Source: an uncultured Latescibacterota bacterium (GTDB lineage: Bacteria; Latescibacterota; UBA2968). From it: 64,000 nt of DNA. A model generated the notes under the pieces. That model was not told the origin of the DNA. It did no database searches and saw only the letters and a program-made list of their open reading frames with translations. The stretch lies in NCBI GenBank assembly GCA_958295785.1, contig OY282377.1, positions 1,316,394 through 1,380,393 on the forward strand, given 5' to 3'. Both the position numbers and the translations under genes were made by a program. Shown in pieces: positions 32,903 to 41,157 of the stretch (position 1 is the stretch's first letter; every line of letters starts with the position of its first letter).

Positions 32903-34519
32903 TTACTGGGCACGCCATAAAAAACAGAACCAACTGATGATGACGATGATGGTAAGGGTTGAGAAAATTGCGATTATCCCCCAGACACCCGGCGGCGTAT
33001 CGGGCAGAGAGAGGGCAATGGGCGGGCCGGGAATCGCGGCTGACGCTTGAAATACGGCTTTGAAAGTGGTATTGTCCCACCTCGTGATTTGCACTTGAAG
33101 CGGGGTATTGGGCTTTGTCGTTAGGGTGGCTGTTGGTGCGAATGCCGTTCCCTTCATAGAGACGGATTCGCCCTCCAAGGTGCCAATGGAAACCCGCTTG
33201 TAATTTGGAAAGCCTTTGCCCAAAAATTTTGCGGCGAGTTGCATGCCTTTTCGCGGATTGCAAGGCACTGCACACGTCACTATTACCCGATAGGGGCCAA
33301 CGGATTGCTCGGCGATAACAACGGGCGGCGCGGTTTGTGTGCCGTAATTGTAAATGCCTTCAATTGTGGAGAACACCGCGATGGCAAAATACGCCAGCGT
33401 GAGAATGAAGGACACCGTCGCGCCGCGCAACCTTTGTGCGGGGTTTGGCTTTGCGCGTACCACCCATAAGTACGCGCCGGCCAAAATTGAAAACGACAGG
33501 GCCAGGCCCAAAATACACCAGATGATTTTGGTTGCGAGGCCGCCGAAATACCCAAAATGCAGGGGATCGACCAAGTCTGTGATAAAGGGAATGACCGCGA
33601 GATCCGCGCTGTGTTGTATGGCGATAACTTCGCCGCTAAATGGGTGCAACAGCACTTTGTTGGCGCGGTCTCTGACGAGAGGATTGCCCGCTTGTCCATC
33701 CAAATAGACCGGCGCGCCAATGCGGTTGGGCATCCGCAGGGATCGGACGGTCAGGCCGGGAAATGCCGCTTGGGCGCGTTTTGCGTATTCGTTGGGCGCG
33801 TGCAACGCGGGCTGCGCGCCGTAATTGCCGAGCGAAGTTTTATCGACTTGTGGCAAGGGCGGTGGCAACAGTGCTCTGTAATTGTCTGCGGCTTGAAAAC
33901 ACACTTCCACAAAGTAGAACACCCCCGTGGCCGCGATCAGCAACACAAAGAGAAAAACCCATATCCCCGTGGTTTTGTGCAGGTCTGACCAGCGCCTGCG
34001 CGGCCCTTTGTCTGTACGCAACGCGAACCATTGACCGCGCCAGCCTTTGTAAAAACAGATCCCAGACAGCCCGGATACGAGCAACGCAAATGCGGTGAGG
34101 GTGACGAGGGTGATGCCGCGCGTGCCGTCGAAAAAACGACGGTGAAAGGATCGGAAGAACCGTTGCACATTGAAAAAACTGGTATGCCCTTTCAGCATGC
34201 CGGTATGGGGATCGAGATAGACTTTGCGCGTTTGTCCATTTGTGAAGGAGACATAAGCCAAGGCGGCAAACCCATCGCCGACTGGCGCGTACATGCCCAA
34301 CACGCGCTCATCGGGAAATTTCGCGATCAATGTTTCGTACATCGCGGTCCAATTGTAAGGCGCGTCGCGGGTTTCGGCGCGCATGGCGGGGTTGAGCAAC
34401 CCATCTATTTCATGGGATAGGGTGGCAAATGATCCGGAAAAGCAGACCACAAAAAGCAACAAGCCAATATTTAGCCCCAAACAACCGTGCAGGCGAAAGA
34501 GCATCTTGCGCCAATTCAT
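32903..34519 (-). CDS. PepSY-associated TM-helix protein (iron-uptake reductase-like)
   Basis: A 538-residue inner-membrane protein. It starts WRKMLFRLHGCLGLNIGLLLFVVCFSG, the first helix with its His, then a periplasmic PepSY-type domain (VYLDPHTGMLKGH). The next part is FFRSFHRRFFDGTRGITLVTLTAFALLVSGLSG, another helix at WSDLHKTTGIWVFLFVLLIAATG, DPLHFGYFGGLATKIIWCILGL, and further helices. These conserved His-containing helices are shared with FoxB/PiuB-like proteins that act next to TonB receptors, probably reducing siderophore-bound ferric iron. It follows the receptor gene by 47 bases. The frame reaches 34552, but the homology begins at the ATG at 34519. Confidence 0.85.
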   Translation of the reverse strand: MNWRKMLFRLHGCLGLNIGLLLFVVCFSGSFATLSHEIDGLLNPAMRAETRDAPYNWTAMYETLIAKFPDERVLGMYAPVGDGFAALAYVSFTNGQTRKVYLDPHTGMLKGHTSFFNVQRFFRSFHRRFFDGTRGITLVTLTAFALLVSGLSGICFYKGWRGQWFALRTDKGPRRRWSDLHKTTGIWVFLFVLLIAATGVFYFVEVCFQAADNYRALLPPPLPQVDKTSLGNYGAQPALHAPNEYAKRAQAAFPGLTVRSLRMPNRIGAPVYLDGQAGNPLVRDRANKVLLHPFSGEVIAIQHSADLAVIPFITDLVDPLHFGYFGGLATKIIWCILGLALSFSILAGAYLWVVRAKPNPAQRLRGATVSFILTLAYFAIAVFSTIEGIYNYGTQTAPPVVIAEQSVGPYRVIVTCAVPCNPRKGMQLAAKFLGKGFPNYKRVSIGTLEGESVSMKGTAFAPTATLTTKPNTPLQVQITRWDNTTFKAVFQASAAIPGPPIALSLPDTPPGVWGIIAIFSTLTIIVIISWFCFLWRAQ

Positions 34520-34566
34520 TTTGGAACCCCGATAAATCGCGGCTGAACGCATCGTTTTTGGCGCGA

Positions 34567-36972
34567 TCAGAATTGATAGCGAACGGTCGTATCAAAACTT
34601 CTCGGCGTGCCTCTAAACCCGCCGATGCGACCGCCATAACCCCCGGGAAAGTATTCTGTGTTGAAAAGGTTGTGCAAGTTGATGGCGATGTTGAATCGGT
34701 CATATCGCATAAAAACAGCGCCATTGGCGACAAAGTACGCGGGCAAGTTGTCGCCCTTCGCGCGGGTGGTGCGCTCGCTGAGATAATTGCCTCCCAAAGC
34801 AAAACCCAACTGGATAGCGCGAGAGGGCGGCATATCGTAGCGAGACCAAAAACCGATGGCGTTTTTGGGATTGTTTGGATTGGCTTGACCGATGTTGGAT
34901 GGGTGGGTGTCTTTGGTGATTTCGGCTTTCAGGCTGTGTGCAAAACTGCCGTGTACGCGCCAGCGATCTGTAATGAGGCCCGCGATGTCCAGTTCAAAAC
35001 CCCGGCTTTGAATTTCGCCGACCTGAACCCTGCGATCCGGCATGTCTTCGGGCGGGTTGGAATCGCGGAGAATGACATTTTCCTTGGCGATGTGATAAAG
35101 CGCGAGGGTGGTGTGAAAACGGTTGTCTAAGAATGTCGATTTCGCACCGCCTTCTATTGTCCAACTGTTTTCCGGATTAAAAGGGCCGCCGTATCGGTCG
35201 GGATCAAATGTGTAGCTGGAACTGACGGGTTCAAAGCCCTCGCTATAGCTCAAATAGGTCGAGATTGACGGGATGGGTTTGAACACGGCCCCGCCGCGCA
35301 ACGACCAATGGGTGTCACCGGCCCGGTTATTCGATCCGCTTTCGGCTTTGTCTTCAAAGGTGTCATAACGCAACCCGAGCAGCACATTGAGCTTTTTGCC
35401 AAAGTCAATTTGGTCTTGAAAATAAAACCCAAAGGCCGAGATGCGGTTGTCGAGGCGCGTGGTCAACTGGGAAATGCCCCGCGGAATATCTGCCCCGTAA
35501 TAGGAATATTTGAGGGGGCCGTTTTCTGGCGCGAAAACGGGATTAAAGATATTGATGTTGGGCACCGGCCCACCCCGGCTGGAATCTCGTGCGGTCGCAA
35601 AGCGGTAAAGACCTTCTGTGAGGGTGTATTCCACGCCCGAAAGCACCGTGTGCTCAATCCATGCGGCATTGAGATTGTAAATCAGATTTGCGTTGGCTGT
35701 TCGCTGTTGTTTTTCGCGGTATTGATCGCGAAATTCGCGCAACATGGTTTCGCCATCGGCGAGCAGGCCCCGAGGTTCGTGGTATTCCTGCCGCCGTTGG
35801 TTGGTTAAATAACTGGCTGAGGCGTCAATTTTTAGGCGATCTGAAAACCGATGATCTGCGCGCAGGCGATAGGTATAGGCTTCAATGCTGATAAAATCGT
35901 CGGGTTCGTTGACCGTGTAATCCAGGGGAAGACCGACGAGTTCGCCGTTGAAAAACGGCACGCCCCGATTGCGGTGGCCCTTGTTCAGTTCGTCAAACCA
36001 TTCGCCGCTTATCGTAAAGGACGTGCGGTCTGTGGGCAACCATGTGAAGGCCCCGTCAAAAAATGAGTGAATGAATTGCTCGTGTTGGCGGAATCCATCA
36101 TCATTGGCATGGCCGGCGTTGATCAGGTAGAGCAGTTTGCCAAAACCGGGCGTTGTGGATAAGGGGCCTGTAAAAGAAAAGTTGGCCTGAGATTTGGAAT
36201 AAGAACCCAGGGTGAATTTGAGTTCGTTTTTTCGCCGCGCACTGGGTTGTTTGGTGAGGACGTTGATAAATCCACCGGGGCGCGATTGCCCATAGAGCGC
36301 GCCCGCGGGGCCTTTGACCACTTCGATGCGCGCCACATTGTCCAATCGCATTCTGTTAAAAAATCCATGCACTTGATTGAGGCCGTTTTGCTTGACCGCG
36401 CCGTCTCCTGTGGTGCGAAAGCCGCGCATGTTAAAGTCGAGATATTCGCTGAAGGGATTGACGCCGCTCACATTTTGCAGCACATCGGTGAGGTACGTCA
36501 GCCCTTGGTCTTCGACGAGGTCGCCATTGATGATTTGCACGGATTGGGGCAAGTCGCGCAAGGCGGTGTTGGTGCGCGTCGCCGTGGTGCGGTCCGAGGC
36601 ATACCCCTCTTCCACGACTGTGATTTCATCGAGGATGTACGGGGTGTCTTCCATGAGGGTGATCGCGATGGCGGGCACTTGGTTTGACGCGACAGACACC
36701 GGTTGTTCAACGGTTTTGTAACCGAGGTAACTCGCGGTGAGGACATAGTCTCCGCGCGGCACATTGGGAATCACAAAATGCCCTTGCCGATCTGTAACGG
36801 CACCCAGGCGCGTGTTTTTCAGCGCGATGCTCGCGCCGGGCAGGGGGGCGTCGTTGGGGTCAGAAACCCGTCCGCGAACCGCATGGGGTTGCGCGAGGGC
36901 AGGCGTTGCAGAAACCGCAAAAATGGCGAGCAACAAACTGGATGCCAAAAAGAAACGAGAGAGGGTTGACAC
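34567..36972 (-). CDS. TonB-dependent siderophore receptor with carboxypeptidase-regulatory-like N-domain
   Basis: An 801-residue outer-membrane receptor importing ferric siderophores with TonB energy. A signal peptide (STLSRFFLASSLLLAIFAVS...ALA) is followed by a carboxypeptidase regulatory-like domain (VRGRVSDPNDAPLPGASIAL, residues about 31-113). The TonB-box-like stretch DEITVVEEG comes next, then the plug (LPQSVQIINGDLVEDQG, RIEVVKGPAGALYGQSRPGG) and a 22-strand barrel ending in RYQF with terminal Phe. The start is GTG at 36972, eight bases after GGAGG. The open frame extends to 37293, but that part has no ribosome site and delays the signal peptide. Confidence 0.93.
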   Translation of the reverse strand: MSTLSRFFLASSLLLAIFAVSATPALAQPHAVRGRVSDPNDAPLPGASIALKNTRLGAVTDRQGHFVIPNVPRGDYVLTASYLGYKTVEQPVSVASNQVPAIAITLMEDTPYILDEITVVEEGYASDRTTATRTNTALRDLPQSVQIINGDLVEDQGLTYLTDVLQNVSGVNPFSEYLDFNMRGFRTTGDGAVKQNGLNQVHGFFNRMRLDNVARIEVVKGPAGALYGQSRPGGFINVLTKQPSARRKNELKFTLGSYSKSQANFSFTGPLSTTPGFGKLLYLINAGHANDDGFRQHEQFIHSFFDGAFTWLPTDRTSFTISGEWFDELNKGHRNRGVPFFNGELVGLPLDYTVNEPDDFISIEAYTYRLRADHRFSDRLKIDASASYLTNQRRQEYHEPRGLLADGETMLREFRDQYREKQQRTANANLIYNLNAAWIEHTVLSGVEYTLTEGLYRFATARDSSRGGPVPNINIFNPVFAPENGPLKYSYYGADIPRGISQLTTRLDNRISAFGFYFQDQIDFGKKLNVLLGLRYDTFEDKAESGSNNRAGDTHWSLRGGAVFKPIPSISTYLSYSEGFEPVSSSYTFDPDRYGGPFNPENSWTIEGGAKSTFLDNRFHTTLALYHIAKENVILRDSNPPEDMPDRRVQVGEIQSRGFELDIAGLITDRWRVHGSFAHSLKAEITKDTHPSNIGQANPNNPKNAIGFWSRYDMPPSRAIQLGFALGGNYLSERTTRAKGDNLPAYFVANGAVFMRYDRFNIAINLHNLFNTEYFPGGYGGRIGGFRGTPRSFDTTVRYQF

Positions 36973-37162
36973 GTTTGAATCCTCCGTGATGATCAATTGT
37001 TGGGATTGAAACTGAACGTGGGACAATTTCATTTTTCGTTTGGAGATATGTTGCATGCGATTTATTTTTAGAACACGTTGCACCTCCTTTGGGTGTGGCT
37101 CTATGCCATCGGTTTTCTGCTTGACGGGCGATAACCGATGGCATTTTTCATTTTTGGCCGCG

Positions 37163-38539
37163 CTACAAGGATCGCAGAAACGCGATGAGGGCGTCTCGGT
37201 CGGCTTTGGACAGGTTGCGGACGGCCTCGCGCGATTTCGCGCCTTCGCCCCCGTGGAACATAATGGCTTCGAGCAGGGTTGCGGCGCGACCATCGTGCAA
37301 ATAGGCCGGGACCCCGTTGACGGTCTCCGTTAAGCCAATGCCCCACAGCGGCGGCGTTTTCCACTCGCGGCCCGTGGCTTCGAAGTCCGGGCGGTGATCG
37401 GCCAAGGCGTCGCCCATGTCGTGGAGCAACAAATCCGCGTACGGGTGGATGGTTTGATTGGACAGGGACGCGATGCTGTGATTGCCGGTTTGAAAGGTGG
37501 GCGTGTGGCAAGCGGCGCACCCGGTCGATTCAAAGAGGGCTTCGCCGCGCAGGGCTTGCGGGTCGTCCCAATCGCGGCGGGCGGGCACGGCCAGGGTTTG
37601 GATGTAAAATGCGGTGACGTCCAGTGTTGTTTGGCCGATTTCTGGATCGTCGTCCCGGCCGTCATATTGGGGTTGTCCCCAAACCGATTCCTGTGGAAAA
37701 TAGGGGTTGGTCACGCCCATGTCCTCGTTGTACGCGCCGGCGGTTTGTTGCAAAATATCGGGATTGTTGGCTTTTAGGCCAAAGCGCCCGAGTTCTCTTT
37801 GCCCGGTTCGGAAATTGTACGCGTAATTGGGCCGTCCAGAGATGCCATCGCCATCTGCATCTGAGGGATCGGCCAAGGCGAGAAGATCGGACTCGGCAAT
37901 GGCTTCGAGCAAGCCGCGTCCAAACACGGGTGGGGCCATGCGCGCCGATAAAAGAACGCCCGCGGGCAGGGGTTGATAGGGCGTGACGATGGTGTAAATC
38001 GGGTGTTTTAAGCGAACCTCTGTGCCATCGGCCATGGTTTCCACGGTTTCAAAAAAATCGACGCGAACCCGCGCTTCGGGAGCCACGCCAAAATTTGCGC
38101 GGTCGCCGAGTTGCGTGCCAAAACCGGGAACGGGCGCAGGGCCGCCGTGCGCGGTGAACCCGGGAATGCTGACGCGCATGAGCATCGAGCCGACAAAGGG
38201 CGGTTCAGAACCAAACGCGCCGCGCCCGCGCCCATCGCGCAAATGGCATCCAATGCAAGACGTGTGGCTAAACACCGGCCCAACGCCTGCGTTCACGTCT
38301 GCCGGTGGGGTGACAAAGACTTGTTCAAACGCGGCATCGCCCGCAAAAAATTTGTCGCGTTCGTCGGGCGAAAGCGTCGGAATCGGCATTTCAAACGCTT
38401 GGCTGGAGGCGTCAAAAACAGTAGCATCCCCCCCGGACAAGGCTTTGTCCGGCGTGGGCACTGGGGCAATGGGATTGCCCTTGCCGCAGGCAAAACAACA
38501 CAGGGCAAGGGCGTAGAAAATTTGACAAGTGATTTTCAT
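37163..38539 (-). CDS. Di-heme oxidoreductase (DHOR / DUF1111), imelysin-linked
   Basis: A 458-residue exported protein with two heme-c sites: C-I-G-C-H at residues 95-99 and C-A-A-C-H at about 341-345. The leader MKITCQIFYALALCCFACGKG contains possible lipidation cysteines. RGRGAFGSEPPFVGSMLMRVSIPG and YLHDGRAATLLEAIMFHGGE are characteristic segments of the family related to bacterial di-heme peroxidases. In known gene neighbourhoods these proteins accompany imelysins and are thought to serve redox steps in iron uptake. The gene lies between imelysin and the TonB receptor. No strong ribosome site is seen before the ATG. Confidence 0.88.
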   Translation of the reverse strand: MKITCQIFYALALCCFACGKGNPIAPVPTPDKALSGGDATVFDASSQAFEMPIPTLSPDERDKFFAGDAAFEQVFVTPPADVNAGVGPVFSHTSCIGCHLRDGRGRGAFGSEPPFVGSMLMRVSIPGFTAHGGPAPVPGFGTQLGDRANFGVAPEARVRVDFFETVETMADGTEVRLKHPIYTIVTPYQPLPAGVLLSARMAPPVFGRGLLEAIAESDLLALADPSDADGDGISGRPNYAYNFRTGQRELGRFGLKANNPDILQQTAGAYNEDMGVTNPYFPQESVWGQPQYDGRDDDPEIGQTTLDVTAFYIQTLAVPARRDWDDPQALRGEALFESTGCAACHTPTFQTGNHSIASLSNQTIHPYADLLLHDMGDALADHRPDFEATGREWKTPPLWGIGLTETVNGVPAYLHDGRAATLLEAIMFHGGEGAKSREAVRNLSKADRDALIAFLRSL

Positions 38540-38641: not shown

Positions 38642-39709
38642 CTACTCTGCCAGCACCAGCGGCAAAATATCGCCTTCGAGCGTTCGTTGCACGGTGGCAA
38701 TGGCCTGTTGGGCCGCGGTGATTTGCGGGCCATCCGTGGTCAGGGCGTCTCGAAATGGAAAGGAAATTTTGCCAATTTCCTCAATGGCCGTCTGAATCTC
38801 AGCTTGAAATCGCTGGTCGAGCGCGGGGTTTTTGCTTTTGACAAATTCGTCGAGCCCCACGGCTTCCACATTGTATCCGCCCGTATAAACATTTTGAATG
38901 CTGCGGATGTTGTCTTGAAAATCGAGGAGCGAATTGAAGCTGAATTGCGATTCCACCAAGCGCGTATCCCGTTCGGTAAAGGGATCGGCGATTTTGCCAT
39001 TTCCGACTTCGTCGGCAATGCCCACCATGCCGTTGACCATTTCCTGCACGGCGGCTGTTTGCGTGGTGTAGGTGTTGCTCCCCGCGCCGGCATTGACCAC
39101 TTGTGCGCGGAAATTCTCGCCCGATGCGATCCAACTCGTGTACAGCGACCCCGCCGCATCTCGGAGCAATTCCGATGTGGCGATCAGATAATCGTATTGG
39201 CGCGGGGTGAACGCATCGATGGTTTTGATGCCGCCCTCGTCAAAGAGCAAAAATTCAATGGTGTGAAATCCCTTGAGCGCGTTGTCGAGGTTATCGACCG
39301 AGGACTTGGTGAGGGGCGTGTCGCTCGCCAAGACGGCTTCGAGGTCTGCGCGGTTGACCGGCCATGTGTCCAGCGCGGGATCAAAGCCATTAAAATCGAC
39401 GGGGCCAAACAAAAAGCCCTCGCTCTTTTCCCACGGAGACCGCGAAGCCACCCATTTTGCGCGGGCAGTCGATAGCGTGGCGGGCGATGGATTGTCTTTG
39501 AGATTTTGCACCGCAGTGAGGAGTTCCGATGCGACAACGGAAAGGTCTTTGTAGGTCGGGATAACCGTTTTATCGGCAAAATCGGTCAAAATCGGAGAAA
39601 AATTGTACCCGGGGTCGGGTTCTGGCGCGACGGGGCTTGCATCCTTGCTGTTGCATGCAGAAAGTGAAAGGGCAAAGATGATGCCGAGTAGAAAGTTGAT
39701 GCGTTTCAC
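38642..39709 (-). CDS. Imelysin-family lipoprotein (peptidase M75-like)
   Basis: A 355-residue lipoprotein: MKRINFLLGIIFALSLSAC with lipobox LSAC. It starts at GTG, six bases after GGAGG. The imelysin G-x-H-x-x-E motif is present as GFHTIEFLLFDEGG, and DTWPVNRADLEAVL with FGPVDFNGFDPALDTWP is the typical region before it. Imelysins were first described as insulin-cleaving, but family members are mostly iron-regulated and are presumed to bind or handle iron at the cell surface. It is the second gene of the iron operon, 16 bases after the porin-like gene. Confidence 0.9.
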   Translation of the reverse strand: MKRINFLLGIIFALSLSACNSKDASPVAPEPDPGYNFSPILTDFADKTVIPTYKDLSVVASELLTAVQNLKDNPSPATLSTARAKWVASRSPWEKSEGFLFGPVDFNGFDPALDTWPVNRADLEAVLASDTPLTKSSVDNLDNALKGFHTIEFLLFDEGGIKTIDAFTPRQYDYLIATSELLRDAAGSLYTSWIASGENFRAQVVNAGAGSNTYTTQTAAVQEMVNGMVGIADEVGNGKIADPFTERDTRLVESQFSFNSLLDFQDNIRSIQNVYTGGYNVEAVGLDEFVKSKNPALDQRFQAEIQTAIEEIGKISFPFRDALTTDGPQITAAQQAIATVQRTLEGDILPLVLAE

Positions 39710-39725: not shown

Positions 39726-40955
39726 TTAGAATTGAAAACCGAGTGCGAAACTCGCGGTGTTTTCGCCGTTGAAATTTGCGGCGCCCAACCGGCGCATGGC
39801 ATAGTCGCCTTTGAGGACGACCGCATGGCCCATGGTGTAGTTGAGGCCAAGCGTGTACACCCGGCGGTTAAAGCGCGGGTTGTCGAAAAAATTGGGGGGT
39901 GTTTCGGCCATGGTGTCGTAGGCGTCATAGCGAAAAAACAGGTGGCATTGATCCTCCTTGCGCGAGGTGAAAAAGGGCAGGATATCGTAACCGACTTCGG
40001 CGTACAAGGCATACGCGGCGCTGGCAACCGGCGTTCTCAACACGTCGAGGTTGTTGGACAAGGTGCGGTTGCGCTGGCTGACTAGGGCCGCGTTTTGCAA
40101 ATGACCGTAGAGGTACATGCCCTGTGCGCGAAAGCGGTTGTATCGCAGCACGGCGTGGGCATCGAAAATGGAGACGTGGGCATCCGCGTCTTTCATGTCG
40201 GGTTTGGGACGGTTGTCCGCGCTGTTGCCGCGATAGCCCGATACGCCGAGCGCGAGACCATCGGCGAGGTGAAAGTCCAACCGCGCCGCAAGGGCCATGT
40301 TGGATGCGCGCACGTCTTCAAAGCGCGTTTGGTGCCCGCCCACAATCCAGTGTTGCGAACTAAAGCCCGTGGCGTCTAAGCCGTTGACGAGTTGGACTCG
40401 GTAGCGCAAGCGATGGATCTCGCCGTTGATTTCAATGCCGGTTTCGTGCCAGATCGCGGGCATAACAGCAGTCTCCGATTCGGGGCGGCGGGTGCCGAAA
40501 AAGTCCGTGGGGTGATATTGCTCTGTGGTGAGGCCCACCCCGACGTAGAAATGGCCCAAGCGGATGTTGAAGGCGTCGCCAAATTCGCGCTCGATGTAGA
40601 GTTCTTCGAGGATGACTTCCCCGCCTTTTTCCACTTCGGTTTCGTATTCGCCAAATTCCTCGTATTCGATTTCGAGGGCGCCGCCCGTGCCGCCGTGCTC
40701 GATTTCCACTTCGGCTTCGAGTTCAACGCCGCGCAGCAGATGGGTTTCCAATTCGAGGGACAGACGCGCAATGTCGATGGTGGCGCGGCTATCGGGCGGT
40801 GAACCCGTTGGGCCGCTCTTTTGGTCGGGGCCGTAATCGAAATGCGAGTAGATGAGTTCGCCGTATCCCGCGAGTTTGAATTTGGACGCATCGGCTGCAA
40901 TGCTCACCGGCAACGCGAGCGCGAGACAGATGCTGCAAAAGAAAACTTTATCCAT
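39726..40955 (-). CDS. Outer-membrane beta-barrel (porin-like), first gene of the iron operon
   Basis: A 409-residue protein with a signal peptide (MDKVFFCSICLALALPVSIAAD). Alternating amphipathic strands run throughout, with acidic segments EVEIEHGG and EYEEFGEYETEVEKGGEV, RLGHFYVGVGLTTEQYHPTDFFG, and a terminal FALGFQF whose last Phe is the usual outer-membrane sorting signal. It resembles the FepA-unrelated, porin-type barrels often found beside imelysin. The acidic loop could attract metal ions, which is an inference. GGGAGG is three bases before the ATG. Promoter and operator are at 41101-41157. Confidence 0.78.
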   Translation of the reverse strand: MDKVFFCSICLALALPVSIAADASKFKLAGYGELIYSHFDYGPDQKSGPTGSPPDSRATIDIARLSLELETHLLRGVELEAEVEIEHGGTGGALEIEYEEFGEYETEVEKGGEVILEELYIEREFGDAFNIRLGHFYVGVGLTTEQYHPTDFFGTRRPESETAVMPAIWHETGIEINGEIHRLRYRVQLVNGLDATGFSSQHWIVGGHQTRFEDVRASNMALAARLDFHLADGLALGVSGYRGNSADNRPKPDMKDADAHVSIFDAHAVLRYNRFRAQGMYLYGHLQNAALVSQRNRTLSNNLDVLRTPVASAAYALYAEVGYDILPFFTSRKEDQCHLFFRYDAYDTMAETPPNFFDNPRFNRRVYTLGLNYTMGHAVVLKGDYAMRRLGAANFNGENTASFALGFQF

Positions 40956-40973: not shown

Positions 40974-41001
40974 TTGACAAAAAATAAACGGGTGTTATAT
41001 T
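40974..41001 (+). promoter_or_regulatory. Rightward promoter of a candidate small RNA
   Basis: TTGACA (40974-40979), 16 bases, then TATATT (40996-41001). It is 19 bases beyond the start codon of the porin-like gene and points away from it. No open frame follows before the terminator at 41051-41095. Confidence 0.65.
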
Positions 41002-41007
41002 GTGCTT

Positions 41008-41095
41008 TGCAAGCGCGGAGAGACACACGCTCTCTAGCGCGTGCGTGCGGGTGATCGGCGATGGCCGGGCAAGTCAGAGCCGATCACTCTTTTTT
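41008..41095 (+). ncRNA. Candidate small RNA of about 88 nt, antisense to the iron-operon leader
   Basis: Starting about seven bases after TATATT, the sequence folds into a first hairpin (GCGC and GAGAG near 41011-41025 pairing with CTCTC and GCGC near 41030-41041). A second hairpin follows, with a perfect nine-base stem GTGATCGGC (41051-41059) / GCCGATCAC (41079-41087), and then TCTTTTTT: a regular intrinsic terminator. No start codon with ribosome site is contained. I do not recognise it as a known RNA family. The opposite strand is the predicted 5' leader of the iron operon. Confidence 0.5.
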
Positions 41096-41100
41096 GTCAT

Positions 41101-41120
41101 TTGTTTTGCTAATAAAACAA
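41101..41120. promoter_or_regulatory. Perfect inverted-repeat operator at the iron-operon start site
   Basis: TTGTTTTGCTAATAAAACAA is a perfect 7-6-7 inverted repeat. Relative to the leftward promoter at 41157-41129 it covers about +2 to +21, a position where a dimeric repressor would block transcription. It does not look like a classical Fur box, so another regulator may be involved. Confidence 0.55.
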
Positions 41121-41128
41121 TCGCCCAA

Positions 41129-41157
41129 ATCATAAAACAGATGTTGCATCTTGTCAA
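41129..41157 (-). promoter_or_regulatory. Promoter of the iron operon
   Basis: On the minus strand TTGACA (41157-41152), exactly 17 bases, then TATGAT (41134-41129). Transcription would begin near 41122, leaving a leader of about 165 nt before the porin-like start codon. Confidence 0.75.

Follow-up and report, generated by a model that had tools for sequence, protein, structure and literature searches.

Sequence evidence for a putative two-layer iron switch, combining a DtxR-family repressor with a cis-antisense leader RNA, in Latescibacterota

To our knowledge, evolutionary conservation supports few cis-antisense RNAs, and many have been dismissed as transcriptional noise. The iron-stress cis-antisense RNA IsrR of Synechocystis is long and lies inside the isiA coding region, and the short, fully folded, two-hairpin antisense RNAs of plasmid copy-number systems (RNAI/CopA/ctRNA type) are directed against a leader and control replication. 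In Vibrio anguillarum, RNA-beta belongs to the same iron-transport operon as the antisense RNA-alpha. RNA-alpha acts on the fatA/fatB iron-transport operon and has a negative effect under iron-rich conditions (PMC5524678). MtlS of Vibrio cholerae is a terminated cis-antisense RNA of ~100 nt that is complementary to a transporter 5' UTR, and the MtlS and mtlA transcripts are inversely coupled (PMC6597380). Here, we describe a locus from a 64 kb stretch of Latescibacterota DNA (the window, meaning the whole stretch that was analyzed), which we are inclined to read as a two-layer iron switch consisting of a DtxR-family repressor and a cis-antisense RNA that would damp the operon leader. Since relatives carry either the same RNA or unrelated RNAs of like design in its place, the locus looks like a real, though still putative, two-layer switch.

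By analogy, RNA-alpha is the nearest known example in iron uptake, as it is likewise antisense to an iron-uptake operon controlled by an iron repressor. However, that repressor is Fur in V. anguillarum and of the DtxR family in the window, and RNA-alpha pairs with fatA/fatB coding mRNA, whereas the RNA predicted here is compact, terminator-ended, located wholly in the leader or a gene junction, and apparently built anew at several operons. The inverse coupling of MtlS and mtlA appears to be the nearest worked example, with a leader antisense RNA next to a repressor-controlled promoter; unlike the window RNA, MtlS serves a sugar transporter, is transcribed from a promoter in a coding region, and occludes ribosome binding, whereas the window RNA stops short of the ribosome site. 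IsrR/isiA differs in that it is not known to involve a repressor-operator pairing of such kind. The plasmid copy-number RNAs share the form of the window RNA but have another role, and the sole ctRNA match in Rfam (ctRNA_pGA1) scored 14.1 bits against a cut-off of 45. It was dropped together with a weak match to RT-13 (18.5 bits, cut-off 69), and no Rfam 15 family reached the gathering threshold for this RNA. A literature search combining Latescibacter and antisense RNA returned nothing on the subject, and only magnetosome genes in another organism turned up. The original prediction had not recognized the arrangement as described, which needs qualification: such cis-antisense RNAs are known as a kind (RNA-alpha, MtlS), also in connection with iron, while the RNA family, the phylum, and the repeated modular use appear to be new.

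The operon is encoded on the minus strand of the window, and Pfam agrees with the gene order read in the original prediction. A porin-like outer-membrane protein of 409 aa (Porin_4; 39726–40955) is followed by imelysin (Peptidase_M75; 38642–39709), a di-haem oxidoreductase (DHOR; 37163–38539), a TonB-dependent siderophore-type receptor (34567–36972), and a PepSY membrane protein (32903–34552). The receptor ORF as called (34567–37293) overlaps the DHOR gene, and its true start is probably the GTG at 36972, which has a Shine-Dalgarno sequence and a signal peptide, and not 37293. The porin is 84–86% identical in five relatives; its homologues with >80% identity come from Candidatus Latescibacterota MAGs, and no porin relative was found in the viral contigs searched. 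The operon promoter TTGACA-17-TATGAT (41157–41129, minus strand; −35 at 41157–41152, −10 at 41134–41129) matches the consensus at 11/12 positions, and in relatives its −35 box is kept and its −10 box is weaker. A long-range leader stem (UGACAAAAAA/UUUUUUGUCA) that was seen in a fold is specific to the window species and was set aside.

The plus strand opposite the leader carries the promoter TTGACA-16-TATATT (40974–41001; −35 at 40974–40979, −10 at 40996–41001), also with an 11/12 match. The predicted transcript, antisense RNA A, extends over 88 nt (41008–41095) and consists of hairpin 1 (41009–41044) and a terminator hairpin (41049–41095) that encloses an inner 4-bp hairpin and ends in a T6 run (41090–41095). 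In the terminator stem, GTGATCGGC (41051–41059) forms nine perfect pairs with GCCGATCAC (41079–41087). Both promoters, the nine-base stem with its T run, and the RNA length of about 88 nt are thus as the original prediction had described them. The leftward leader, if the promoter at 41129–41157 is used, overlaps RNA A in position over its whole length and would be fully complementary to it, also as predicted. The region 41008–41100 folds with −44.8 kcal/mol (z = −3.6), a value that none of 200 shuffled sequences equaled. A promoter scan of 2 kb detected six promoter-like sites, compared to 1.0 ± 0.9 in shuffles. When the 64 kb were scanned for near-consensus promoters with a strong T-tailed hairpin no more than ~125 nt downstream, this unit was the sole match, and the same scan applied to 20 Markov shuffles gave no match in 18 and one match in two. 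A generic terminator scan passed over the window terminator because its 19-nt loop with the inner hairpin exceeds the loop limit of 8, and scanning all loci for terminators alone proved too permissive for quantitative use. A small protein encoded in RNA A was ruled out, as a conserved ATG opens a different frame in each species. RNA A starts ~50 nt ahead of the first porin codon and stops short of the operator described below; it therefore covers most of the leader, the ribosome site being excluded.

The operator TTGTTTTGCTAATAAAACAA (41101–41120; TTGTTTT-GCTAAT-AAAACAA) is a perfect 7-6-7 inverted repeat that begins just downstream of the expected operon start site near 41122, where the original prediction had located it. 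We searched for its motif (TGTTTTATTARYAAAACA; TGTTTTRNTARYAAAACA, up to one mismatch) in the 11 genomes of the genus, which, with two genomes from outside it, formed our sample, and found one to three copies in each of the 11, whereas a reversed-pattern control yielded none in ten genomes and one in G010. The flanks of nearly all copies were inspected (the feo-type copy on C208 in G003 and one further one-mismatch copy in G008 were left out), and in all 11 genomes the inspected copies lie in front of dtxR-like/feoA/feoB genes or of one of this cluster's cassettes (porin or nitroreductase). One class lies upstream of a 174-aa DtxR-like repressor, feoA, and feoB, as seen directly in the ten genomes other than G003; in the window's genome, this copy (G000:C1:2614324–2614341) lies as far from the −10 box as the window copy does. 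The other copies precede a porin or nitroreductase cassette adjoining a Gfo/Idh gene. The 174-aa protein contains an Fe_dep_repr_C domain (1.8e-9) and matches DtxR and MntR structures. Because of the genes that its copies front, the 20-base repeat is almost certainly a DtxR-family iron operator, and in these ten genomes the palindrome sits at the promoter of what would be an autoregulated, metal-dependent repressor gene. This resembles the DtxR/IdeR/MntR regulons, with their autoregulated metal-dependent repressor and palindromic operators at iron-transport promoters; unlike these, the regulon of this genus comprises just one to three sites, and its operator TTGTTTTATTAGYAAAACAA presumably differs from the classical DtxR box. 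Three more DtxR-domain ORFs (243–454 aa, two of them long enough for fusion proteins) are located near dtxR-feoAB at G000:C1:2621051–2624032. In the same genome, an 18-mer, TTTTTTAACAGCAAAAAA, is scattered in about 30 copies that lie inside a longer palindromic repeat, and the sequence around TGTTTTGGTCGCATACCA occurs in several identical copies, probably a mobile element.

By BLAST, the region falls into two independently moving blocks. RNA A is kept in five genomes, with one copy each and 74–84% identity in relatives, and this type A unit lies directly before porin1 in G000, G001, G003, G005, and G008. Across all five loci the −10 box TATATT is invariant and the −35 box is TTGACG or TTGACA. 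In G001 and G003, a second cassette (porin2, FMN_bind, PepSY) sits between the operator and the type A RNA, which is thereby 2.7 kb away from the operator; the T run of this RNA meets the stop codon of an upstream PepSY gene. A second unit, type B, is located between the operator and porin2 in G001, G002, G003, and G007, and before porin1 instead of porin2 in G009; its −10 box is weak and its promoter matches at 9/12 positions overall. Types A and B are unrelated in sequence. Covariance model R1 missed the type B loci even at E values up to 10, R2 missed type A and matched the window only at 37064 and 24479, and thus no single model found the other type. Both types nevertheless share one layout: −35/−10 boxes beside the gene start, a small hairpin, a terminator hairpin with an internal loop, and a T run adjoining the operator or the upstream stop codon. 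As type A fronts porin1 in five genomes and type B accounts for five more starts, all ten porin-led operons in the genus start with one antisense unit. G008 and G009 are close to each other, with 96% Gfo identity and 98% identical porin DNA, yet keep different units. The covariance models found no further convincing copies of either type in these genomes, and an R2 match at 2491032 in the window's own genome, a plain T-tailed hairpin amid other sequence, was judged to be due to chance. Operator copies at the nitroreductase and feo genes are without a hairpin unit; a third unit suspected at the nitroreductase operator of G001 and G003 (L016:5440–5760, L017:11890–12210) was rejected, as the two share a T-run remnant but lack the hairpins and promoter.

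These comparisons support in part the original prediction of a repressor acting together with a cis-antisense RNA as an iron-uptake switch. The operator does recur at other iron genes, and the stems and promoter of the RNA are conserved in relatives; however, the RNA is bound neither to the operator nor to this leader, as it can lie at a gene junction and be replaced by a sequence-unrelated RNA. They also bear on the possibility that the rightward transcript works in trans as a small RNA, reaching other iron or envelope mRNAs or a protein through its conserved apical loop, and neighbors the porin by chance. Each type has its own conserved apical loop in the terminator hairpin, GGCCGGGCAAGUCA for A and GGGCUGGCAGGCUC for B, the latter with a similar sequence in the distant f4 hairpins described below, which could hint at a trans target or protein. 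We nonetheless regard this explanation as unlikely, since the unit always occurs in cis to the start of an iron-operon gene while its sequence is swapped in place from A to B, and since the RNA is almost fully folded and shows no obvious single-stranded seed. The compact two-hairpin form rather resembles cis-antisense RNAs that meet their targets by loop contacts than trans-acting small RNAs with a free seed.

In the type A alignment, 98.6% of the cells at 28 pairs are paired and one pair is compensatory, a result equaled in 114 of 500 shuffles; taken alone, the covariation of type A is modest. Pair 65–85 of alignment A2, located in the terminator hairpin, changes from C-G to U-A. When type B was compared with its copy in another genus (G014), six pairs had changed on both sides, which was reached in none of 500 shuffles. 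For both types and in 10/10 cases, the RNA strand folds better than the operon strand by 9–15 kcal/mol, a comparison that is free of the bias affecting the count of G-U versus A-C cells on the RNA-strand structure (47 versus 1), which leans to the RNA strand by construction because the pair sets came from RNA-strand folds. With the strands folded separately, the operon strand still had fewer wobbles and more A-C breaks. An alternative in which the structure belongs to the operon leader, as an attenuator, protein site, or mRNA stabilizer, with an incidental antisense promoter and T run, is very unlikely in this light. The hairpins do form on the operon strand, but less stably, and a riboswitch or other sense leader would have its structure favored on the mRNA strand, the reverse of what was observed; the wobble pairs suit the antisense strand alone, and the T runs and −10/−35 boxes are on the antisense strand at all loci. 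Indeed, each of the 12 loci examined has its own promoter (9–11 of 12 positions matching) and T-tailed hairpin opposite the target, as expected of a cis-encoded antisense RNA.

A further explanation invokes transcriptional interference or insulation only, by collision or by blocking antisense read-through into the neighboring gene, with the RNA itself being inert. It would fit the convergent promoters and the position of the units, whose ends fall on the stop codon of the preceding gene or immediately short of the operator. However, both hairpin 1 and the inner hairpin are kept with compensatory and G-U changes beyond what interference needs, and we consider this explanation quite improbable.

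Outside the genus, G014 has the order Gfo, operator, type B, porin2, with the stem rewritten by the compensatory changes mentioned above. G015, from another family, has the cluster DtxR – porin – ApbE – FMN_bind – 217-aa gene – PepSY – FeoB, with antisense units of like anatomy before the porin (L123:6586–6721; TTGACC-17-TATATT) and before PepSY (L123:2802–2933; TTGACA-17-TATATT). The latter came up with the type A model at E = 9.5e-4 in that genome (47 genomes searched), and its location inside an iron cluster lends independent support. A unit before the porin was not found in some other genera that have the operon (L054, L110/L055). Conservation by descent without function or relevant transcription would be consistent with the young age of the genus and with the loss of the hairpins from the leader at the third operator, that of the nitroreductase in G001 and G003, but appears extremely improbable: RNA A has 77–85% identity to the window copy, compared to 70–75% at four-fold sites of the neighboring porin, the G014 copy covaries, the association is 10/10, and similar units occur in another family.

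Within the window, the DHOR-TonB gap contains a candidate second antisense unit, type C (37064–37149, plus strand), with a hairpin (37077–37099), a terminator hairpin (37103–37144), and a T run. It was matched by R2 (E = 0.002), has a fold z of −4.4, and is conserved in G001 and G003 with 90% identity in stretches; a strong −35 box was not seen. On the operon strand opposite this unit, a perfect Shine-Dalgarno sequence precedes a two-codon ORF, GTG TTC TAA, which reads ATG TTT TAA in G001 and G003. T-tailed antisense hairpins also follow DHOR, in the corresponding gap, in the distant f4 genus (L126:13776–13846, L127:13489–13559, L129:5290–5361), with the apical sequence CUGGCAGG as in type B; having no clear promoter, they are only a lead.

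These units are best read as cis-antisense RNAs that would dampen transcripts of iron operons under DtxR control, in the leader or between genes. In the first layer, the DtxR-family repressor, encoded with feoAB elsewhere, would, when iron is sufficient, bind the 20-base operator both where the operon begins and in front of its own dtxR-feoAB genes. In the second layer, the constitutive-type promoter beside the porin start codon would yield the compact two-hairpin RNA, which most likely pairs with leader RNA, nascent or finished, and reduces leaky expression via RNase III cleavage or premature termination. Simple ribosome occlusion should not be the mechanism, because the RNA begins upstream of the ribosome site of the porin gene. 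Under iron starvation, strong transcription of the operon would cross the antisense promoter and in turn silence the RNA, which would create a threshold. Interference should act mainly one way, because antisense transcription ends before the operon promoter. The most likely role of the RNA would thus be to keep leaky or low-level expression of the operon down while iron is sufficient, and it would be overrun once the operon is derepressed. At internal junctions (G001, G003, and G015), a like device would set the downstream block separately.

More tentatively, it is quite possible that Latescibacterota use a recurring module, in which gene starts in DtxR-controlled iron operons, leaders as well as junctions, each have their own antisense hairpin RNA. 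If true, these RNAs would differ in sequence and share a layout, one repressor site would be split into separately tuned gene blocks, and the window would hold two units, at the porin and at the TonB receptor. The operator and repressor would together form a first candidate iron regulon for a phylum without genetics. As the structure on the antisense strand is conserved and covaries, the unit tracks one kind of operon across genera, and its sequence is swappable while the design stays, a role of leader antisense RNAs in iron homeostasis becomes directly testable.
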